Notes: a model not told the origin generated them from the letters alone. A stretch of DNA of 64,000 nt from an uncultured Thermoleophilia bacterium (GCA_903927755.1 CAIYOD010000032.1:66391-130390); one strand, 5' to 3'. Positions 52,669-63,186 are shown, numbered from the stretch's first letter. Program-made: numbers and translations.

Positions 52669-53820
52669 TCAGATGCCCGGCGGAACGAGCACGAGCTTGC
52701 CGACATGCCGTTTGTCGAGCATCGCCGTCTGGGCGTCGGCGATCCGCTCGAGCGGGAAGGTCTCCGCCACGCGCGGCCGAAGCTCACCGGCTTCGATCCG
52801 CGCCAGCAGCGCCGGGAACACCGGTTCGTCCCAGGCGGTGCAGCCGATCATCCTGAGGTCGTGCAGGTAGAAGACGCGCTTGTCGAAGCCGACTCTCGGT
52901 CCTGCGATGGCGCCCGACGACACGTAGGCGCCGCCTGGCCGGAGGGCCGCCAGCAGGCCGTCCAGGCCGGGCCCGGAGACGTTGTCGACGACGACGTCGA
53001 CCGAGCCCTCGCCGAGGGCTGCGATGATCTCATCGTCGCGGTCCACGACCCGGGCGGCTCCCAGCGCCAGCACCTGCTCCGCCTTCCCGGCCCCGGCCAC
53101 CGCCGTGACCTCTGCGCCGCGAAGCCGTGCGAGCTGTACGGCGGCAGAGCCGACGCCGCCGGAAGCGCCGGTGACCAGCACGTGCCGGCCCGCGGAGACG
53201 CGGGCACGGTGCAGCATGTTCTCCGCGGTCCCATACGCGCACGGGATCGCGCCGAGTTCCACGTCGCTCAGGGCGGTCTCGACGGGGAAGGCCTCGGAGG
53301 CCGGCACCTTGACGAACTGGGCGAACGCGCCGTCGAAGTCGGAACCCAGCCACACGTTCCGGATCGACGCGAAGCCCCGAGGCCGCATGCACGGCCGGAC
53401 GAGCACCCGGCGCCCGAGGAGGCTCCGGTCGCCGCCGGGTCCGACGGCGTCGACGCGGCCGCAGCAGTCGGTGCCTTGGATGAAGGGGAAGGGTGTCGGA
53501 GCGTCCCACCCCCCGTCCGCCCGCTGGACCGCGGCCGTCTCCTGCGCCTCGGCGTCGTATCCGGTGGCGGCGTCGACGGCGGCCGAGTACCAGCCCACCC
53601 TCGTGTTGATCTCGGTGTTGTTGACGCCGGCGGCGAGGACACGTACGAGCAGTTCCCCGTCTCCCGGCTCCGGTCGCCGGATCTCGCGGTACTCGAGCTT
53701 GTCGAGGCCGCCGTTGCCGGCAGTGACCACGGCGAACATGGTCGGCTTTCCCGGCTCGGGCTCGAGCCGGCTCGGATCGAACGTCGTCTGCCGCCGGATC
53801 ACCTGGTCCACGGACGTCAC
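52669..53820 (-). CDS. MDR-superfamily alcohol dehydrogenase/quinone-reductase-like protein
   Basis: GTG 53820 with GAAGGGGGC upstream gives 383 residues; a later ATG at TMFAVVTAG would give a shorter, more usual N-terminus. The GroES-like half has KLEYREIRRPEPGDGELLVR and FIQGTDCCGRVDAVGPG. The Rossmann half has VLVTGASGGVGSAAVQLAR near 215 and the end reads HVGKLVLVPPG. The GHE and structural Cys motifs of zinc alcohol dehydrogenases are absent, so a zinc-free NAD(P)H reductase or dehydrogenase is likely. It lies 46 bp behind the aldehyde:ferredoxin oxidoreductase homologue, suggesting an alcohol-aldehyde-acid chain. Confidence 0.8.
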   Translation of the reverse strand: MTSVDQVIRRQTTFDPSRLEPEPGKPTMFAVVTAGNGGLDKLEYREIRRPEPGDGELLVRVLAAGVNNTEINTRVGWYSAAVDAATGYDAEAQETAAVQRADGGWDAPTPFPFIQGTDCCGRVDAVGPGGDRSLLGRRVLVRPCMRPRGFASIRNVWLGSDFDGAFAQFVKVPASEAFPVETALSDVELGAIPCAYGTAENMLHRARVSAGRHVLVTGASGGVGSAAVQLARLRGAEVTAVAGAGKAEQVLALGAARVVDRDDEIIAALGEGSVDVVVDNVSGPGLDGLLAALRPGGAYVSSGAIAGPRVGFDKRVFYLHDLRMIGCTAWDEPVFPALLARIEAGELRPRVAETFPLERIADAQTAMLDKRHVGKLVLVPPGI

Positions 53821-53866
53821 GGCGCCCCCTTCGTGCCACTCGCCGGCCGGCTCGGGCCGGAGGCCC

Positions 53867-55642
53867 TCAGAGCCGGACGTCCAGCGAGAGCTTCGCCAGT
53901 GTCTCCTCGGTGGGGACGCCCTCGGCGTCCCACCCACGCAGCCGATAATACTCGTCCAGGGCGGCGCGGAACTCGTCCGCGCCGACCGTCTTGCCGGCCG
54001 CCGCTCCGTCGGGGTGGGGCACGTCGAGGATCGCCGGCAGGCGGTCGTGCTCGCGGCCGAACCCCTCGCGCAGGTTGAGCAAGCGGCCGAGATTCCAGAT
54101 CCGGGCGCCCGTCGTCATGAGCTCCTCGTGGGTGGTCCCGCGGCCCCAGAGGTGGCGGAAGTGGGCGCCGAGGAAGTCTGTGTCCATGTACATGTTGGCG
54201 CACCAGACGCCGGTCCAGGCGAGGGCGCTGAAGTCCTGCTGCTCCGCGACCAGCGCCGGCTTGCCTTTCAGCGAGTCCGCCGGCGCCTCTCCTCCCAGGA
54301 TGTCGTCGGCGGCGGTGAAGGCGCGCATGTGGCAGGCGCCGCGGTCGGAGGTGGCATAGCCCAGACCCATGCCGAAGGTGCCGCGCGGGTCGTAGGCGGG
54401 CAGCTCGAGCCCCTTGATGTGCGGGGCGAGCTCGGGCCGGCCCTTGAGCGCGGCGAGGTCGCGGGCGCCGAGCGCCAGTTCGGCGCCCCAGCCCTCTCGC
54501 CGCGAGATCATCCCGGGGGCCGCAAGGTAGCCGGTCGCGTCGCCGAAGGCGAGGCCGTAGTCGGCGACGCCTCTCTCGCACAGATCCATGGCGAGGGCCA
54601 CGACGGCGCCCGTCGACATCGTGTCCAGACCGAGCTCGTCGCAGGCCTGGTTGAAGGCCGCGATCGTGGCCAGGTCGCCGATGCCGCAATTGGCGCCGCA
54701 GAGGCCGAGGGTCTCGAACTCCGGGCCTTCGCAGACGTGGTCGCCGAACCGGTGGACCTGGCGACACGCGAGCGGACACTGCGTGCAGGCGCGGATCTTC
54801 GTGCGCACCTCGAGAAGACTGGCGGAGTCGATGCGGTCGGCCTGCTCGAACTGCCCGGTCCGCCAGTTCCGCGTGGGGAGCGCGCCGGCGGCGTTGACCA
54901 GGTCGACGAGGAACGGTGTTCCCTCCTCGTACGTCCACGCATTGTCCTCCGTGAGGATGCGGTCGTTCTGCAGATCGAGCACGTCCCGGGCGAACGCGGC
55001 CGCGTCGCCGACGGTGACCGAGCCGGTGCCGCGCACGACGACCGCCTTGAGGTTCTTGCTGCCCATGACGGCGCCGGCGCCGCCGCGACCCGCCTTGTGA
55101 TACTGGTCGGTGGAGAGGCAGGCGAAGGGGATGAGCTGCTCGCCGGCCGGGCCCGTGGAGAGGACCTTGTGCCACGGGCCCATCTCCTCGCGAACGAGCT
55201 GCTCGAGAGCCGCCGTCTCGAGACCCCAGAAGCGGCCCTCCGCCGGCAGGAAGTCCACCCGGTCGTCCTCGACGAGCACGAGGACCGGACGCGGCGCCCT
55301 GCCGGTCACGACCACCACGTCGTAGCCGGCGAACTTGAGCTCGGGGGCGAACGAGCCGCCCACGTAGGAGTCAAGGAGCGTGCCCGTCGCGGGACTCTTG
55401 CAGCCCACCGCGAGGCGCGAGCACGTCGCCGCGGCCGTGCCCGCGAAGGGGCCGCTGGCCAGGATGAGCGGGTTCTCCGGCGAGAGCGGGTCAGTGCCGG
55501 GCGAGAGCTCGGCGAAGAGATAGCGGAAGAGGAGCCCCTTGCCGCCGACGTACAGCCTGGCCCACTCCGCTTCGAGCGGCTCGACCGTCGCCGTGAGCGC
55601 AGTCATATCGAGCCGCAGCACACGTCCGGTATAGAAGTCCAC
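53867..55642 (-). CDS. Aldehyde:ferredoxin oxidoreductase family protein (tungstopterin type)
   Basis: GTG 55642 with GAGGAG upstream gives 591 residues (MDFYTGRVLRLDM). The N-terminal domain includes YVGGKGLLFRYLFAELSPG near 32, GPFAGTAAATCSRLAVGCKS near 65 and GRGGAGAVMGSKNLKAVVV near 178. The [4Fe-4S] cluster motif CTQCPLACRQV is near 275, followed by GPEFETLGLCGANCGI. The late SDRGACHMRAFTAADD near 430 is also typical. Members hold a bis-pterin tungsten centre and oxidise aldehydes to acids with ferredoxin. Specificity is open. It is the first gene of an operon with the MDR enzyme and diverges from TetR across a strong operator. Confidence 0.9.
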   Translation of the reverse strand: MDFYTGRVLRLDMTALTATVEPLEAEWARLYVGGKGLLFRYLFAELSPGTDPLSPENPLILASGPFAGTAAATCSRLAVGCKSPATGTLLDSYVGGSFAPELKFAGYDVVVVTGRAPRPVLVLVEDDRVDFLPAEGRFWGLETAALEQLVREEMGPWHKVLSTGPAGEQLIPFACLSTDQYHKAGRGGAGAVMGSKNLKAVVVRGTGSVTVGDAAAFARDVLDLQNDRILTEDNAWTYEEGTPFLVDLVNAAGALPTRNWRTGQFEQADRIDSASLLEVRTKIRACTQCPLACRQVHRFGDHVCEGPEFETLGLCGANCGIGDLATIAAFNQACDELGLDTMSTGAVVALAMDLCERGVADYGLAFGDATGYLAAPGMISRREGWGAELALGARDLAALKGRPELAPHIKGLELPAYDPRGTFGMGLGYATSDRGACHMRAFTAADDILGGEAPADSLKGKPALVAEQQDFSALAWTGVWCANMYMDTDFLGAHFRHLWGRGTTHEELMTTGARIWNLGRLLNLREGFGREHDRLPAILDVPHPDGAAAGKTVGADEFRAALDEYYRLRGWDAEGVPTEETLAKLSLDVRL

Positions 55643-55702
55643 GAGTCTCCTCACTATGGAAAGCCGGTCCCCTCCGCCATGGTGCGCCACGGGGCCCCAT
55701 GC

Positions 55703-55762: not shown

Positions 55763-56476
55763 ATGTCAAGCCGGTCCCGCATCGCCGAGACTGGGGGAGG
55801 CGAGCGTCCGATGGTGGCAGCGCCCGGAGGGTGGAGCACGGACGGGGACGGTTTCTCGCGTCTGACCGACCACCTGCACTTCACCTTCGAGGACCCGCTC
55901 TCGTCGCTTCCCCAGACCGCCCAGAACCTGCTCATCGCCGCCAAAGAGATCGTCGCCGACGAGGGCTTCGAGGCGCTCACCCTGAAGACCGTCAGCCAGC
56001 GAGCCGGCGAGAACAAGGCGATGGTCTCCTACTACTTCGACAACAAGGCCGGCCTCGTCGCGGCCGTGCTCGACTCCGTGATCCACGACGAGTACTTGGC
56101 GTCGCTCGACCGCATGAGGGACGTCACCCCGGGGAATCGCATCCCGCGCCTGGTCAAGGAGATGCGGCGCATGGCCGCGTCGGTCGAGGACTTCCAGGTC
56201 TTCTTCGAACTGCTGCCGCACGTGCTGCGCGACGAGGTGCTCCGCCGCCGGATGGCCATGCTGTTCCGCTGGTACTGGAAGATGAAGCTCGAGTGGCTCG
56301 GCGCGGACGACGGCACGGGAGGGCTCGCCGATCCGGACCTGCTGGGCATCGCCCAGCTCCTCAGCGCCATCATCGACGGGCTCGCCATCCAGGCCGCCGT
56401 CGACCCCGACATGGACCTCGCCAATCCCTACCGGGTGCTCGCGCGGATGCTTGACTGCTTCGAGATCGAGGCCTAG
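55763..56476 (+). CDS. TetR-family transcriptional regulator
   Basis: ATG 55763 gives 237 residues, but ATG 55811 has better spacing to GGGGGAGG and removes a Gly-rich leader. The DNA-binding domain lies at about residues 48-100: AAKEIVADEGFEALTLKTVS and NKAMVSYYFDNKAGLVAAVL. The C-terminal ligand domain includes VEDFQVFFELLPHVLRDEVL and AQLLSAIIDGLAIQAAVDPD. It probably represses itself and the divergent oxidoreductase operon. A similar sequence near the transporter promoter at 48321 hints at a wider regulon. It converges with the first MttB gene with no gap. Confidence 0.9.
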   Translation: MSSRSRIAETGGGERPMVAAPGGWSTDGDGFSRLTDHLHFTFEDPLSSLPQTAQNLLIAAKEIVADEGFEALTLKTVSQRAGENKAMVSYYFDNKAGLVAAVLDSVIHDEYLASLDRMRDVTPGNRIPRLVKEMRRMAASVEDFQVFFELLPHVLRDEVLRRRMAMLFRWYWKMKLEWLGADDGTGGLADPDLLGIAQLLSAIIDGLAIQAAVDPDMDLANPYRVLARMLDCFEIEA

Positions 56477-57880
56477 TTAGCCCAAGCAGTACGCGTCCAG
56501 CTGCCGCCGGACCACTGGATCCAGGTCGTCCGGCGGCTGGTACGAGTCCAGCAGCTCCACGACCCGCGCCGCGGCGGCGGCGGCGAGGTCCTGCCCGCCG
56601 TGCGACCGCCAGGTCTCGTACGGCGCGCGGTTCATGATGGTCCGTCGGATGCCGTCGCGCGCGTGCCGTCGCGTGTGTGCGTGGCCGAGCACGGTGCCGC
56701 CGGGTCCGGCGGCCTTGACCACGTCGAGCGCGAGCGTCTCTTCGTCCACCTCGATCGGCCGCCGCGCCACGCGCAGCCCGCTGAGGACCTCGTCGTCGAT
56801 CACGAATTTCTCCGGCGAGAAGCAGTTGAACGACGAGAGGATGCCGGCGGCATGCAGGACGTACTGCGCGCCGGTGCGGAGCACGGTGTCCATGGCGAGC
56901 GCCGACTCGATGCCGGCCTGGGCATCGGGGAGATGTGCGTCGGTCACGGAGCCGCCGGCGCGCACGGGCACGCCGAGCCAGTGGCCGAGCCGAACGGTGG
57001 CCTCCATGAGCGACCAGTAGGCCGGCGCGCCGATCATGAGCGCGCCGCTTTGCATGGAAGAGAGCGACGACGTGCCTCCGTAGAGAAACGGCGTGCCGGG
57101 GTTGGCCAGCTGCGTCAACACGAGGCCGACGAGCAGCTCGGCATGCTGCACGGCGAGGAGGCCCGCCAGCGTGATCGGCGCCGTCGTCCCGCCCATGGCG
57201 CAGACGGCGACGAGGACCGGCTGACCGAGGCGCGCCAGCCGCAGGGCGACCTGCGCGCCTTCCGCCGAGAACTGCAGCGGCGACGTGGTGTTGATGACCG
57301 ACCACAGGCGCGGCCGCGCGTGCCAGTCCGCGCCGTGCAGGATCTCGAGCACGTCCGTGGCCACCTGGAACTCCGCCAGGGACGTCACCGTGTAGCGGCA
57401 GTTCTTGTCGCTCGCCGTGGCGTGCAGGTGGGCGACGACCTTGGGCCGCAGCTCCTCCGGTACGTCGTTCGGCTCGATGCTGTAGCCGAGCACATCGATG
57501 TTAGGCGAGAGGTGCGCGAGCCGCGCCGCCGTCGTGAGGTCGGCGAGCGTGCCGGTGCGGTACTCGCCGCTGCTGAGGACGAAGGGCGGGCCGGAAGCGC
57601 TCGCCAGCACGGCGGGCTCGCCGAGCCCGACGTGCAGGTCGAGCTCGGGCCGCCGGCCCGCCATCGTGTAGCGCGCGGGGGCGGTGGAGCGCGCCCGCTC
57701 GACGAGTGCTTCGCCGAATCGGGCGCGCTCCCCATCCACCCGCGCGCCGTTCGCCTTGAGGAGCGCGAGCGCCTCGGGGTCGAGGACGGCGCAGCCGACC
57801 TCCTCGAGCAGCATGAGGGCTGCCGCATGGATCTTCTGGCAGCCCCGCTCGTCGAGGACGGCCCGGGCGGCTCCGTTCAC
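56477..57880 (-). CDS. Trimethylamine methyltransferase (MttB) family protein, non-pyrrolysine
   Basis: GTG 57880, five bases after AAGGAG, gives 467 residues. The MttB-type barrel is shown by LEEVGCAVLDPEALALLKAN near 26, DKNCRYTVTSLAEFQVATDV near 155, SVINTTSPLQFS near 185 and VCAMGGTTAPITLAGLLAVQ near 225. The tail reads GPGGTVLGHAHTRRHARDG. The frame has no internal TAG, so it is a non-pyrrolysine relative such as those that demethylate glycine betaine, proline betaine or carnitine on a corrinoid protein. It is the last gene of a five-gene operon. The corrinoid protein partner is not in the window. Confidence 0.88.
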   Translation of the reverse strand: MNGAARAVLDERGCQKIHAAALMLLEEVGCAVLDPEALALLKANGARVDGERARFGEALVERARSTAPARYTMAGRRPELDLHVGLGEPAVLASASGPPFVLSSGEYRTGTLADLTTAARLAHLSPNIDVLGYSIEPNDVPEELRPKVVAHLHATASDKNCRYTVTSLAEFQVATDVLEILHGADWHARPRLWSVINTTSPLQFSAEGAQVALRLARLGQPVLVAVCAMGGTTAPITLAGLLAVQHAELLVGLVLTQLANPGTPFLYGGTSSLSSMQSGALMIGAPAYWSLMEATVRLGHWLGVPVRAGGSVTDAHLPDAQAGIESALAMDTVLRTGAQYVLHAAGILSSFNCFSPEKFVIDDEVLSGLRVARRPIEVDEETLALDVVKAAGPGGTVLGHAHTRRHARDGIRRTIMNRAPYETWRSHGGQDLAAAAAARVVELLDSYQPPDDLDPVVRRQLDAYCLG

Positions 57881-57904
57881 ACCGGCTCCTTCGCGTGCGT
57901 TCTG

Positions 57905-59353
57905 CTACTCGCCGGCCGCGACGTACGCGTCGACCAGGCCGTCCACCGTCTGCTTCATCTCGGCGCTGAGCGGCTCGGGCTTGTGGTTGGTCATGATGTC
58001 GACGAGCTTGCGATGCGCCTTCTCGGTGGCGTCGGGCGCGCCGTCCGCCTCCCAGTTCTTCTGGGTGCTGCGGTTGAGGATCGTCGGCCTCCACTGCAGC
58101 TTGCGCACGTGCCGCTTGGTGTGCTTCTGGCCGAGGAAGTCGCCGCCCTGGCCCACCGCGGCGATGGTGTCGAGCGCCAGCGTCTCTTCGCTGACCTCGA
58201 TGCCCTCGAGCGCGCGTCGATTCATCGAGATGACCTCGTCGGTGAGCACGACGAGCTCGCCGGCGCCGGAGAGACCGAAGTCGAGGTAGCCGATGTCGTG
58301 GTTGAGGTTCGAGCCGGCCTGCATGCTGAGCAGCGTGAGCTCGGTGATGTCGATGCCGGCGTTGGCATCGACGCACTGCGAGTCGCTGGTGCCCGCGTAG
58401 CCCCAGTTGGGGATGTCCATCCACTTGGCCATCTCTGTGATGCCGAGGTAGGTGGTGTAGTACTCGGCCGAGTTGTAGAGCGCCTGGACGGTGTTCATGT
58501 CGAGCTTGACCGGGCCCATGCCGGTGAGCAGAGGGGAGCCCGGGCGGCGGAGCTGGTGGATGACGACGCCGAAGAGCGACTCGGCGACGGCCTGCACGAT
58601 GTGGCCGGCGTGGGTGATCGGCGCGGTCGCACCGGCGATCGGCGCCGGGGAGTAGATGAGCGGGATGCCCCAGTCGGCGCAGAAGAGCAGCTTGTCGAGC
58701 ACTTCCGGTGCGTGCTGCAGCGGGCTGACGGGCTCGCCGTACTGGATGAAGTACGGCTTCTCGCGCAGCTGCTCGGCGCCGCCGCGGAAGGCCGAGGCGA
58801 TCTTCCACATGACCTCGAGGTCCTCCACGCCGGCGGCGGTCATCACCATCGGCTTGGTCGTGTTGCTGACCATGGCGCGGAAGCACTCGAGGTACGACGC
58901 ATAGGCGTCGATGTCGTGCGGATGCGCCGCCGACATGATGAAGTCGATGTTGGGGAGGCCGTCGCACAGGTGCGCCATGCGCGCCGTGTCAGCAAGGACG
59001 CTCAGACGGCGCTCGCGCGTCTCGAAGTCGTAGATGCTCATGAGGTCCGAGCCCGTTCCGAAGAACGAGTTGTAGCCGCCGAGCTGCATGGCCGGCTCGC
59101 CGTTCCGGTCGTACACGGGGATCATCGAGGGAACGGTGGCGCGAGCGGCGTCAACGGCCTCGCGCGGGATCTTGACGAGCTCGCCCTCGACGGTGGCGCC
59201 GGCGCCCTTGACGAGGATCTCGCGCGCCTCGGCGTGGGGCACGGTCATGCCCATCTCCGAGATGATCGTGAGGGCGGCGTCGTAGATCATCTGGCACTTC
59301 TCGTCCGAGAGCATCTTGAGGCGGCTCTCGAGGACGGCGGGCAGATCGGTCAT
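57905..59353 (-). CDS. Second MttB-family methyltransferase, non-pyrrolysine
   Basis: ATG 59353 with AAGGAG upstream gives 482 residues. Motifs follow the family: ALTIISEMGMTVPHAEAREI, FGTGSDLMSIYDFETRERRL near 95, NTTKPMVMTAAGVEDLEVMW near 145, SPAPIAGATAPITHAGHIVQ near 225, and GGDFLGQKHTKRHVRKLQW near 415. No TAG interrupts it. It is a clear but diverged paralogue of its neighbour, 24 bp away, so the two could form a heteromer or act on different methylated substrates. Both belong to COG5598-type proteins with a wide substrate range. Confidence 0.9.
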   Translation of the reverse strand: MTDLPAVLESRLKMLSDEKCQMIYDAALTIISEMGMTVPHAEAREILVKGAGATVEGELVKIPREAVDAARATVPSMIPVYDRNGEPAMQLGGYNSFFGTGSDLMSIYDFETRERRLSVLADTARMAHLCDGLPNIDFIMSAAHPHDIDAYASYLECFRAMVSNTTKPMVMTAAGVEDLEVMWKIASAFRGGAEQLREKPYFIQYGEPVSPLQHAPEVLDKLLFCADWGIPLIYSPAPIAGATAPITHAGHIVQAVAESLFGVVIHQLRRPGSPLLTGMGPVKLDMNTVQALYNSAEYYTTYLGITEMAKWMDIPNWGYAGTSDSQCVDANAGIDITELTLLSMQAGSNLNHDIGYLDFGLSGAGELVVLTDEVISMNRRALEGIEVSEETLALDTIAAVGQGGDFLGQKHTKRHVRKLQWRPTILNRSTQKNWEADGAPDATEKAHRKLVDIMTNHKPEPLSAEMKQTVDGLVDAYVAAGE

Positions 59354-59375
59354 CGTGGTGTCTCCTTGGGGGGGT

Positions 59376-60629
59376 CTAGGACTCTGCGGGCTCTGTCGAA
59401 TCGATGAAGGCCTTGAACGCGCCGAGGCCTTCCTCGATCTGTGCTGTGGTGACGCCTGAATACGCCAGGCGGAGATGGTACTCGGTCTCGTCCGGCGCTG
59501 CCTTCCCGAAGTGCAGGCGGGTGCAGAACGACACGCCGGTCTTGTCGAGCAGGAGGCGCCGGAAGTCCTCATGACCGGCGCAGCCGGTCAGGCGGACGGC
59601 GCCGGTCACGTCCGGGTACAGGTAGAACGTGGACTCGGGCGTGTGACAGCGCACGCCGGGCGTGTCGTTCAGGATGCGGAGCGCGGCGTCGCGCCTCCCT
59701 TCGAGCCGGGCCATCATCTCGCGGGGCCCGGTCTGGTCGCCGGTGAGCGCCTCCAGGGCGCCGTACTGAGCGAAGTGGTTGGGGCACGACTCCATGTTCA
59801 CGTTCATCTTCGTGATGATGTCGATGATCGGCTTTGGTCCGATAGCAGCGCCGAGGCGCCAGCCCGTCATCGCGTACTTCTTGCTGAACGTGTACAGGAT
59901 GACCGTGCGCTCCTGCATGCCGGGGCGCGACACGATCGACTCGCTGGCGCCGGCGAAGCGCACGTCGAAGTAGGCCTCGTCGCTGAGCACGAGCAGATCG
60001 TGCTTGAGTGCTATCTCGGCTATGCGGTCGAGCTCCTCGGGCGTGCACTCCGCGGCCGTGGGATTGTGGAGATCGTTCAGGATCAGCAGGCGCGTGCGCG
60101 GCGTGATGCGCCGCTCGATCGCATCGATGTCGATGGCATAGCGGTCACCGGCGTCCACGTACCCATACGGCACGGCGACCCCGCCCACGAACTCGATGAA
60201 CGAAGCGTAGATGGGGAAGCCGGGGTTCGGGTACAGCACTTCGTCGCCCATGTTCATGGCGGCCATGAGCCACTTGCCGATCACCGGCTTGCCGCCCGGC
60301 TGCACCGACACGTCGTCGGCGGTGTACGCGACGCTGCGAGCGGCGCTCACGTCGGCCGCCAAGGCCTCGCGCAGCGGCATGACGCCGGCGTTGGCGCAGT
60401 AGGTGGTCTTGCCGTCGCGGATGGCCTTGTTCATCGCCACGACGATGGGCTCGGCGGTCGGGATGTTGAGATCGCCCAGGTGGAACGGGTAGATCGTCCG
60501 TCCCTGCGCGGCGAGCGCGGCAGCCTCGGCCGAGACGGCGAACACCGTCTCGGTCCCGAGCCGCGTCACCCGGTCGGCCGGCACGAAGCCGGGTCCGGGC
60601 GCGGTGCTGTCTTCAGCGAGCGAGTGCAT
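59376..60629 (-). CDS. Class I/II PLP-dependent aminotransferase
   Basis: ATG 60629 with GGAAGGA upstream gives 417 residues. IYPFHLGDLNIPTAEPIVVA near 46, VSVQPGGKPVIGKWLMAA near 107 and NDLHNPTAAECTPEELDRIA near 180 are class I features. The PLP lysine is in LYTFSKKYAMTGWRLG near 245 and the carboxylate-binding Arg in YHLRLAYSG near 393. It moves an amino group between an amino acid and a 2-oxoacid. In an operon with two MttB homologues and a PanB homologue it may process the amino acid left after demethylation. That role is inference. Confidence 0.9.
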   Translation of the reverse strand: MHSLAEDSTAPGPGFVPADRVTRLGTETVFAVSAEAAALAAQGRTIYPFHLGDLNIPTAEPIVVAMNKAIRDGKTTYCANAGVMPLREALAADVSAARSVAYTADDVSVQPGGKPVIGKWLMAAMNMGDEVLYPNPGFPIYASFIEFVGGVAVPYGYVDAGDRYAIDIDAIERRITPRTRLLILNDLHNPTAAECTPEELDRIAEIALKHDLLVLSDEAYFDVRFAGASESIVSRPGMQERTVILYTFSKKYAMTGWRLGAAIGPKPIIDIITKMNVNMESCPNHFAQYGALEALTGDQTGPREMMARLEGRRDAALRILNDTPGVRCHTPESTFYLYPDVTGAVRLTGCAGHEDFRRLLLDKTGVSFCTRLHFGKAAPDETEYHLRLAYSGVTTAQIEEGLGAFKAFIDSTEPAES

Positions 60630-60654
60630 CAGGAGTCCTTCCGGCGCCGGGCGT

Positions 60655-61500
60655 TCAGCTCTTGGCCCAGTCGGCGAACTTCTCCTGCTCGCCCTCGAGC
60701 ATGCGGTAGCAGTGCTGCTCCTCGGGGAAGGCGCTGCCGCGGACGTCGTTCACGTACTCCGTCAGCGCCGCCGTGGAGACGCCGGCGAGGTCGGCGTACT
60801 TCTTCACGAACTTGGGCGTGAACGCCTGGAAGGTGCCGAGCACGTCGCTGACGATGAGCAGCTGGCCGTCGACGTCCGAGCCGGCACCGATGCCGAGCAC
60901 CGGGATCGGCAGCTCGGCACGGATGAAGCCGGCGACCTCCGGCGGCACTGCCTCGACGAGCAGGAGCTGGACGCCCGCCTCGTAGAGGGCCCGGGCGTCC
61001 TCCACCACGAGCTTGGCGGACTCGAGCGTGCGGCCCTGGGCCTTGTGCCCGCCGAGCTGGCCGGAGCTCTGCGGCGTGAGGCCGATGTGGCCGCAGACGG
61101 CGACGCCGGCGTCGAGGATCGCCCTCACGCGGGAGACGGTGCGCACGCCGCCCTCGAGCTTGATGGCGTCGACGTTCGCCTCCTTGAGGAAGCGGATGGC
61201 GTTGGTCACGGCATCCTCGTCCGATGCCTGGTAGCTGCCCAACGGCATATCGCCGATGATGAACGTGCCCGGGGCGCCACGGCGCACGGCCTCGCTGTGC
61301 ACGATGCACTGGTCCATGGTGACCGGCACGGTGCCGGGATAGCCGTAGACGCACATGCCGAGCGAGTCGCCGACGAGGATCATGTCGATCCCGGCCGCCT
61401 CCTCGAACGTCGCCGTCGGGTAGTCGTAGGCGGTGAGCCAGGTGATCTGTTCACCGGCGCGCTTCATCTCGTGCAGGTCGAACAGGCCTTTCTTCGGCAT
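60655..61500 (-). CDS. panB: Ketopantoate hydroxymethyltransferase homologue
   Basis: ATG 61500 with AGGAGG upstream gives 281 residues. Catalytic features are intact: ITWLTAYDYPTATFEEAAG near 19, the metal ligands in ILVGDSLGMCVYGYPG and GDMPLGSYQ, the substrate contact KLEGG and the catalytic Glu in LLVEAVPPEVAGFIRAE near 185. The enzyme adds a hydroxymethyl group from methylene-tetrahydrofolate to 3-methyl-2-oxobutanoate. No panC or panD is near. Its location next to methyltransferases and an aminotransferase suggests a one-carbon transfer to another 2-oxoacid, or an ordinary PanB that is simply displaced. Confidence 0.88.
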   Translation of the reverse strand: MPKKGLFDLHEMKRAGEQITWLTAYDYPTATFEEAAGIDMILVGDSLGMCVYGYPGTVPVTMDQCIVHSEAVRRGAPGTFIIGDMPLGSYQASDEDAVTNAIRFLKEANVDAIKLEGGVRTVSRVRAILDAGVAVCGHIGLTPQSSGQLGGHKAQGRTLESAKLVVEDARALYEAGVQLLLVEAVPPEVAGFIRAELPIPVLGIGAGSDVDGQLLIVSDVLGTFQAFTPKFVKKYADLAGVSTAALTEYVNDVRGSAFPEEQHCYRMLEGEQEKFADWAKS

Positions 61501-61556
61501 GGGGATGGACCTCCTGTGGGAATCTGGATTGCCGCAGCGGCGCGGACGCCGCGCTC

Positions 61557-62021
61557 TTACTGTTCGGTGGCGATGGGCCAGCCTTCGTCCTCGACGGACT
61601 CCGCCAGGACGAGCATGGTCTCGAGGTTCATCACGCCGGGGATGCGGGCGATGTCGACGCGGATGAGCTGCCCAAGGTGGTCGAGGTCGCGCAGAGCGAG
61701 CTCCACGACCATGTCGAACTGACCGGTGACGTGGTAGCAGGCACGGACCCCGGGGACGTCCTTGATGCCCTTCTCGAACTCCCGGATCGATTCCTCGCTG
61801 TGCTCGCGCAGGCGAGCGACGACGAGGGCGCGGACGGTGATGCCCAGCGCGGCGGGATCGATGACGGCGCGGTAGCCACGGATGGCGCCGCTGCGCTCCA
61901 GGCGACGAACGCGGCCCAGCATGGCGGACGGGGACAGACCGAGCTTGCGCGCAAGCGCGAGGTTGGACATGCGTCCGTCCTCCTGCAGGGCCAAGAGGAC
62001 CTCACGGTCGAGTGCATCCAC
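61557..62021 (-). CDS. Lrp/AsnC-family transcriptional regulator
   Basis: ATG 62021, after GGAAGG, gives 154 residues. The first 60 residues form the winged helix (LLALQEDGRMSNLALARKLG and SPSAMLGRVRRLERSGAIRG). The rest is the amino-acid-sensing domain, with FEKGIKDVPGVRACYHVTGQ near 85 and a conserved FDMVVELALRDLDHLGQLI. It leads the operon with panB, the aminotransferase and both MttB genes and probably responds to an amino acid or related substrate. Its own promoter and an inverted repeat lie directly upstream. Confidence 0.92.
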   Translation of the reverse strand: MDALDREVLLALQEDGRMSNLALARKLGLSPSAMLGRVRRLERSGAIRGYRAVIDPAALGITVRALVVARLREHSEESIREFEKGIKDVPGVRACYHVTGQFDMVVELALRDLDHLGQLIRVDIARIPGVMNLETMLVLAESVEDEGWPIATEQ

Positions 62022-62058
62022 GCCTTCCCCCTCCGGGAGCCGTTGATCGGTCCAGAGG

Positions 62059-62102
62059 AGTATTCAGTCTGATGTTCGCTCAGTCAAGCGCACAAGTGAA
62101 CA
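62059..62102 (-). promoter_or_regulatory. Promoter of the Lrp-MttB operon with inverted repeat
   Basis: On the minus strand TTGACT (62082-62087) and AATACT (62059-62064) are 17 bp apart, matching the -35 and -10 consensus at 5 and 4 of 6 bases. TGTTCGCT (62073-62080) and AGTGAACA (62095-62102) form an inverted repeat with one mismatch that flanks the -35 box. This is a likely Lrp binding site. No terminator is obvious in the remainder of the 166-bp gap (62022-62187). Confidence 0.6.
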
Positions 62103-62187
62103 ATCTTCCGTGAAGCGTGCGAATAACCGCTCGGATTGTCCGTTGGTGACCTGCCCGTCCTCGCCCGGAGAACGCATCCCCGGCGGG

Positions 62188-63186
62188 TCAGGGGCGCTCG
62201 GAGGCGACGATGTCGGCGAGCGCCTCGATCACCGCGACGCCGTCGTCGATGACGACGGCGTCGGCCTCGCCGGTGATCGCCGCGCGCTCGTCGGTATCGA
62301 CCGCGGCGATGAAGCCGGCGCGCTCGACGCCCCAGAGGAAGGCCGGCGCGCCTGACACGCCCACCGTGAGGCAGACGGCGGGTGCCGAGCGAGCGCCGGA
62401 GACGCCGATCTGGCGGTCTGGCGGCGCCCATGCGTTCATGACGACCGGGCGCGTGGCGCCGAAGGCCGCGCCCAAGCGGGCGGCGGCGGCGGCGACGCGC
62501 TCCACACCGTCGCGGCTGCCGGCACCTCTGCCGGCGACGACCAGGAGCTTCGCCGCCTCCAGATCGCCGGTCGTCGGCTGGTCGAGCACTTCCACGCTCT
62601 TGAGCGGCCCCGAAGCGGAGGAGTCGTCCTCGTGCAGCTCCGCGACCGTCTGCACCACGTGCTCGTTCGGCGCCGAAGGTCGGGCGTCGGACCAGCCCGC
62701 ATCCAAGGTGATGCACCAGGGAAGCGAGCGGAGCTCGAACAGACCCACAAGGTGGTTGGAGTAGACGCGCCGGCGGCACGCAAGGCCCTCTCCGCTGAGC
62801 TCCGCGTCCAGGATGTCCGTCATGACGGAGCCTCCTGTGCGCGCGGCCAGGCGGGCCGCCAGCTCGGTGCCGAGCGGGCCGCCGGGGAAGACGAAGAGCT
62901 CGGCGCCGCCGCCCGCCTCGAAGGCGGTCAGGGCGGCGGTCATGAGGTCGGCTCGCAGCGCGGGCGTGCGGATCAGGCGAACGTCTGTGGTCGGGGCGAG
63001 CTCGAGGAGGCTCTCCCGACCGGACTGGTCGGCATGGAAGAGATGGGTGGCCGCGACGAGCTTGACGTCTGCTCCGAGGCGCAGCCCCTCGCGGAGGAAG
63101 GCGCCGAGCGCCCGCGCCTGCCGCTCGGCAGTGGCCGCGGTCCCGTCCAGCACGGCGGCGACTCGGAGTGTCTCCCGAGCGCTCAC
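62188..63186 (-). CDS. etfA: Electron transfer flavoprotein alpha subunit
   Basis: GTG 63186 overlaps the etfB stop by 4 nt and gives 332 residues; the frame is open upstream but homology starts here. The N-terminal half has ALGAFLREGLRLGADVKLVA and LFVFPGGPLGTELAARLAAR near 95. The C-terminal FAD domain has AKLLVVAGRGAGSRDGVERV near 200, GATRPVVMNAWAPPDRQIGV and VCLTVGVSGAPAFLWGVERA near 270. FIAAVDTDERAAI closes the flavin site. It pairs with EtfB to shuttle electrons from flavin dehydrogenases. FAD motifs are somewhat diverged from textbook EtfA. Confidence 0.85.
   Translation of the reverse strand: MSARETLRVAAVLDGTAATAERQARALGAFLREGLRLGADVKLVAATHLFHADQSGRESLLELAPTTDVRLIRTPALRADLMTAALTAFEAGGGAELFVFPGGPLGTELAARLAARTGGSVMTDILDAELSGEGLACRRRVYSNHLVGLFELRSLPWCITLDAGWSDARPSAPNEHVVQTVAELHEDDSSASGPLKSVEVLDQPTTGDLEAAKLLVVAGRGAGSRDGVERVAAAAARLGAAFGATRPVVMNAWAPPDRQIGVSGARSAPAVCLTVGVSGAPAFLWGVERAGFIAAVDTDERAAITGEADAVVIDDGVAVIEALADIVASERP

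Follow-up and report, generated by a model that had tools for sequence, protein, structure and literature searches.

The stretch of DNA analysed here, called the window throughout, comprises 64,000 nucleotides from an uncultured Thermoleophilia bacterium (GCA_903927755.1, CAIYOD010000032.1:66391-130390) and lies on a 140.5 kb contig (C32) of a metagenome-assembled genome (MAG) of 3.54 Mb that is 86.9% complete. The source MAG is designated G000; C-numbers denote its contigs, G-numbers genomes and L-numbers extracted stretches. Between positions 56477 and 62021 the window carries five genes on the minus strand. In the direction of transcription they encode an Lrp/AsnC-family regulator (61557..62021), PanB-II, a divergent homologue of ketopantoate hydroxymethyltransferase (KPHMT; 60655..61500), a class I pyridoxal phosphate-dependent aminotransferase (AT; 59376..60629) and two non-pyrrolysine methyltransferases of the MttB superfamily, MttB_B (57905..59353, with its ATG at 59353) and MttB_A (56477..57880). 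All five open reading frames were confirmed at the coordinates claimed in an earlier note made from the sequence alone, and the gaps from Lrp to MttB_A (56, 25, 22 and 24 bp) agree with the spacing of 22 to 56 bp given there. A purine-rich ribosome site (GGAG/AAGGA-like) precedes each gene. The single shared promoter postulated in that note corresponds to one sigma-70-like site (TTGACT-17-AATACT; 62059..62087, minus strand) directly upstream of Lrp, a consensus match only; it is the sole such site in the region 56200-62300, compared with 0.3 expected in shuffled sequences. In this bacterium of soil and sediment, these genes may constitute an undescribed route for the breakdown of a methylated amino acid.

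The family assignments of the regulator and the aminotransferase held on profile searches. Lrp contains both the helix-turn-helix and the RAM ligand domain (PF13404, PF13412 and PF01037, AsnC_trans_reg) and falls under every NCBIfam equivalog cut-off. AT matches PF00155 (Aminotran_1_2) with 160 bits and lies under each NCBIfam equivalog cut-off shown; among proteins of solved structure, aspartate aminotransferases are closest to it (E 3e-55), and a paralogue with 62% identity is encoded on contig C154 of the same MAG.

MttB_B and MttB_A match PF06253 (MTTB; cut-off 25 bits) with 268.6 and 376.6 bits, respectively. As had been claimed, neither contains an in-frame TAG codon: both frames are open, and the residue at the pyrrolysine position is Thr in MttB_B and Val in MttB_A. 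Their scores of 279.4 and 350.9 bits, in the same order, do not reach the TIGR02369 equivalog cut-off (525 bits). The closest solved structure to MttB_B, by a small margin, is the trimethylamine methyltransferase MttB (7xcl), a member of the same superfamily from which MttB_B differs in having Thr instead of pyrrolysine and in scoring below that cut-off. MttB_A is closest to the glycine betaine methyltransferase MtgB (9yce/2qne; 274 bits to 9yce over 457 residues) and, in a tree with few reference sequences, falls in a group sister to it (SH-aLRT 93). Both are non-pyrrolysine enzymes, but MttB_A differs in its separate clade and in its pairing with AT and PanB-II. Neither MtgA nor corrinoid protein genes occur in the operon. 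The statement that no corrinoid protein is visible applies to the window and not to the MAG, in which 14 B12-binding_2 proteins are encoded; one of them (C32:140172-140387) lies on the upstream side of the operon, some 12 kb away. We know of no PanB step in the pathways of MtpB, MtcB and MtyB of Eubacterium limosum. By their description these enzymes share with the window proteins the idea of a non-pyrrolysine MttB taking one methyl group off a betaine, their substrates being proline betaine, carnitine and gamma-butyrobetaine (PMC8604678 and references therein).

Comparison with related genomes (Thermoleophilia/Actinomycetota MAGs, several of them from peat or lakes according to their isolate names) revealed PanB orthologues of 84-90% identity in eight other members of the family. 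Lrp (75-88% identical) is located directly upstream of PanB in seven of the eight, the contig of the eighth ending at this point, and MttB_B follows downstream of PanB in seven, with AT in between in six. The complete order Lrp-PanB-AT-MttB_B-MttB_A is found in G007 and G012, while in G001, G003 and G005 Lrp-PanB-AT-MttB_B extends up to, or near, the contig end. Three variants exist: PanB-AT-MttB_B-...-MttB_A (G002), Lrp-PanB-MttB_B-MttB_A lacking AT (G010), and Lrp-PanB with an AT remnant followed by other genes (G006). An MttB_B orthologue (at least 70% identity) was detected in 8/9 PanB-positive and in 0/6 PanB-negative genomes of the family (hypergeometric p ~0.0014, a value that ignores relatedness and overstates independence because these genomes are related). 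The five-gene order is kept more than by chance, and the genes form a conserved operon.

Downstream of MttB_A are located genes for an aldehyde ferredoxin oxidoreductase (53867-55690) and a zinc alcohol dehydrogenase (52669-53830); the former is also present near MttB_A in G002 (79% identity). The upstream ETF, FAD-oxidase, FGGY kinase, SDR and HIBADH genes were considered as members of the pathway and dropped, because in related genomes they do not accompany the operon as a set.

A scan of GTDB genomes revealed proteins with 68-90% identity to the window PanB in Bipolaricaulota, Spirochaetota, Desulfobacterota, Planctomycetota, Armatimonadota and others, spanning at least six phyla, whereas the canonical PanB proteins of class-mates are at most 54% identical to it. 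These PanB-II proteins are monophyletic, separated from the rest of the tree by a branch with SH-aLRT 99. The window PanB, nested within them among members linked to a 422-aa partner, matches PF02548 (Pantoate_transf) with 340 bits and passes the panB equivalog model TIGR00222 (298.5 bits, cut-off 207.55). Its catalytic residues had been described as kept, and all eight catalytic and metal-binding positions (Y25, D45, S46, D84, K112, E114, H136 and E181) are indeed present, as they are in 100% of the PanB-II set. The pocket for 3-methyl-2-oxobutanoate is not conserved. Four changes (E. coli numbering) are fixed or nearly so in PanB-II, namely I212 to L (L in 94%), V214 to I (I in 99%), M/T21 to W and V179 to L; PanC-linked PanB-I proteins have V/I at 212 and V at 214. 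By its own numbering, the window protein has W21, L214 and I216 at positions 21, 212 and 214. In E. coli KPHMT, which accepts many 2-oxoacids, residues I202 and I212 govern substrate scope (PMC7611260); unlike position 212, positions 21, 179 and 214 are assumed here to tune the pocket. Taken together, the substitutions suggest a substrate side chain smaller than isopropyl.

The genomic context of PanB-II also differs from that of PanB-I. PanC adjoins none of the 94 PanB-II genes, compared with 19 PanB-I loci (many flanks are short), and it stands beside PanB-I in nearly all class-mate loci examined. In the mixed genomes G163 and G165 PanC lies beside one PanB copy each, and most PanB-I copies of Desulfobacterota are also without a nearby PanC. 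At least 15 of the 23 PanB-II genomes searched encode more than one PF02548 protein (six at most), and 15 of the 23 have one outside the clade, at 40-50% identity. PanB-II shares with KPHMT (EC 2.1.2.11; E. coli 1m3u, M. tuberculosis 1oy0) the fold family and the metal and catalytic residues, and tetrahydrofolate (THF)-dependent hydroxymethyl chemistry is expected for it too; it differs in its own clade, in the changes at 21, 179, 212 and 214, in the lack of a PanC neighbour, in the several paralogues per genome and in degradative neighbourhoods. The window PanB is probably not the ordinary pantoate enzyme; it belongs to a separate, uncharacterised branch that probably cleaves carbon compounds rather than making the vitamin.

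Linkage was found outside the source family as well. A Desulfobacula locus (L219) resembles the window operon most closely, with the order OCD ... AT, PanB-II, DAO/sarcosine-oxidase-like flavoprotein, MttB, MttB, BCCT transporter, so that an operon with AT, PanB, two MttB and BCCT genes exists in another phylum. Its first MttB is the best match to MttB_B among the 24 PF06253 matches of that genome and is sister to the MttB_B clade (SH-aLRT 95). In the Thermoleophilia genome G081, MttB is followed by genes for a corrinoid protein, a class IV aminotransferase (named by eye), PanB-II, the 422-aa partner and Lrp. The PanB-linked MttB of this genome falls beside MttB_B in the tree (SH-aLRT 99) and is only the fourth-best MttB_B match there, three others scoring slightly or clearly higher. 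Outside the family, 11 PanB-II loci have an aminotransferase gene nearby; among loci with full flanks such genes occur in 7/43 for PanB-II versus 0/19 for PanB-I, a difference that is suggestive only.

A frequent neighbour is the 422-aa protein, encoded within 475 bp of PanB-II in 53/94 cases from many phyla (e.g. L109:10870-12138). Neither Pfam nor NCBIfam gave a convincing match for it; its AlphaFold model (pLDDT 86.7) gave weak TIM-barrel matches in Foldseek, the best being a class II fructose-bisphosphate aldolase (E 3e-4, TM 0.33). Further neighbours are LarA with IlvD-type dehydratases and TRAP transporters, an ectoine-degradation-like set, and class I aminotransferases with alanine dehydrogenase. 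A common denominator of these surroundings could be a 4-hydroxy-2-oxoacid formed by transamination or deamination (AT, OCD, BCAT) or by dehydration (IlvD); the IlvD-type dehydratases and LarA beside PanB-II could also lead to such compounds.

Some additional arrangements were observed around PanB genes. A 316-aa protein of no convincing family adjoins PanB-II in L207:6520-7470, L216, L223 and L229, three of these four loci being ectoine-degradation-like clusters (M24 peptidase, M20 deacetylase). A Desulfotignum region (L148:4297-10843) contains LarA, LeuC/LeuD-like, MttB, isopropylmalate-dehydrogenase-like and PanB-II genes, as recognised by eye. In four Desulfobacterota loci (L206, L210, L225 and L231) a PanB outside PanB-II (41-50% identity) stands beside IlvD-type dehydratases and TRAP transporters; these copies perhaps represent another degradative PanB group.

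The source MAG encodes about 37 homologues of MttB, which often occur in twos or threes (C32, C65, C132, C182, C46, C55 and other contigs); five of the 37 genes contain one in-frame TAG each. PylS, well over its cut-off, is encoded at C89:2844-3569, with PylBCD-like genes (recognised by eye) on the same contig. About 10 kb past the operon, at C32:138772-140169 (L010:773-2170), lies a gene for the dimethylamine methyltransferase MtbB, whose frame runs through a TAG codon (HVDGL-TAG-VGSGDPHGM) and which adjoins a corrinoid protein gene. These genes show that this Thermoleophilia MAG encodes pyrrolysine; this is not new for the phylum, since expression of pyrrolysine mttB and mtbB has been reported for Actinobacteriota of Stordalen Mire (PMC10805028). 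The MAG also encodes CdhC of acetyl-CoA synthase (ACS), and ACS/CdhC is present in 7/9 PanB-positive versus 1/6 PanB-negative genomes of the family.

The reading that we favour, and that we hold tentatively, is that the operon serves the catabolism of a betaine-type amino acid with PanB-II acting in reverse, N,N,N-trimethylhomoserine being the best-fitting substrate. We infer the substrate, the direction and the order of the steps as follows. In an anaerobe with the Wood-Ljungdahl pathway, Lrp would sense the amino acid or its product, and MttB_A and MttB_B would pass N-methyl groups to corrinoid proteins whose genes lie outside the operon, roles suggested by their families. Leftover N-methyl groups would be removed by other enzymes; the Desulfobacula version of the operon holds its DAO/sarcosine-oxidase-like flavoprotein inside. 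The demethylated amino acid would then be transaminated by AT to a 4-hydroxy-2-oxoacid, and PanB-II would transfer the terminal hydroxymethyl group to THF, yielding methylene-THF and a shorter 2-oxoacid. With trimethylhomoserine, demethylation would give homoserine, transamination 4-hydroxy-2-oxobutanoate, and PanB-II pyruvate and methylene-THF; this compound, the headgroup of the betaine lipid diacylglyceryl-trimethylhomoserine (DGTS), would fit every step. Ordinary aminotransferases interconvert homoserine and 4-hydroxy-2-oxobutanoate (PMC8879981), KPHMT also performs retro-aldol cleavage (PMC10127515), and green algae and non-flowering plants are the members of the green lineage in which DGTS is found (PMC8752610). 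A synthetic homoserine cycle built into E. coli (PMC8879981) also uses homoserine, 4-hydroxy-2-oxobutanoate and pyruvate; it is man-made, runs in the assimilating direction and uses an aldolase instead of a PanB enzyme. The open-access literature yielded no paper combining MttB with trimethylhomoserine and none combining ketopantoate hydroxymethyltransferase with 4-hydroxy-2-oxobutanoate.

Several points weigh against this proposal. The betaine-lipid headgroup is naturally ether-linked, and no enzyme freeing trimethylhomoserine was found. The pocket argument comes from an alignment to E. coli numbering. AT is missing from the operon of G010. Outside the family, MttB genes lie near PanB-II in four loci only and the genomes concerned carry 11-25 MttB genes each, so some of this proximity is due to chance, and no enrichment is claimed. 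PanB-II is also present in genomes without MttB (G150, G152); it is consequently not tied to methylated amines, and a dependence on MttB was rejected.

The varied neighbourhoods described above (the 422-aa partner in 53/94 cases, LarA, IlvD, the ectoine-degradation-like set, the class IV aminotransferase of G081), together with the position of the window PanB among partner-linked members, would also suit a reverse reaction on a different, branched or polyhydroxylated 4-hydroxy-2-oxoacid, fed by the MttB proteins from another betaine. We consider this rather unlikely: among the common natural amino acids, homoserine alone carries a terminal 4-hydroxy group, and the pocket changes would point to a side chain smaller than isopropyl.

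The earlier note had named, as an objection, the case in which this PanB is the only pantoate enzyme of the organism. It is the sole PF02548 protein in the MAG, which also encodes PanC, so that formally half of the objection applies, and this too counts against the catabolic proposal; with the complete catalytic residues and the TIGR00222 score it is what would be expected if the protein made ketopantoate for pantothenate and its co-transcription with AT and MttB were incidental or regulatory. However, the PanC gene of the MAG is on another contig, PanB-II lacks a PanC neighbour and coexists with other PanB proteins in many genomes, and the family genomes G004, G008 and G009 keep PanC without any PanB. 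PanC in this family is thus independent of the window PanB, and the objection loses its force; these sister genomes weaken the pantothenate explanation without removing it, and we judge it unlikely. Like these three genomes (family f1), G017 has PanC, and no PanB of any kind was detected in it.

A forward reaction, in which PanB-II fixes one-carbon units released by demethylation onto the 2-oxoacid that AT produces, whether as a carbon sink or for biosynthesis, agrees with the known physiological direction of KPHMT and with the co-occurrence of the genes, but is very unlikely, since corrinoid transfer yields methyl-THF that must first be oxidised to methylene-THF, the operon holds no downstream gene for a hydroxymethylated product, and the related loci of Desulfobacterota include uptake transporters and an alanine dehydrogenase, as is usual for degradation. 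Of the pathway first proposed for the locus (demethylation, transamination, and use of the released one-carbon unit by PanB), the gene set, the general idea and the non-ordinary nature of PanB stand, while the direction assigned to PanB is probably wrong; because corrinoid methyltransferases normally deliver methyl groups, PanB works at the methylene level and the PanB-II neighbourhoods are degradative, a reverse, carbon-releasing PanB-II is more economical.

The interpretation first given for the locus is partly supported. The operon is conserved and presents known enzyme families in a new form, for which the catabolic pathway is a hypothesis. If it is true, proteins of several bacterial phyla that automatic annotation now labels PanB, the enzyme of vitamin B5 synthesis, do another job, and anaerobes gain a direct route from hydroxy-oxoacids through methylene-THF into the Wood-Ljungdahl pathway. 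It would also offer a first candidate for how amino-acid betaines are degraded anaerobically past simple demethylation; to our knowledge, no anaerobic route has been described for betaine-lipid headgroups. A broader and more doubtful proposal is that PanB-II may be a widespread, undescribed THF-dependent carbon-carbon lyase that converts 4-hydroxy-2-oxoacids to methylene-THF in anaerobes, and that in these Thermoleophilia it would complete an anaerobic route for trimethylhomoserine or similar betaines, derived for example from the betaine lipids of peat and lake sediment.

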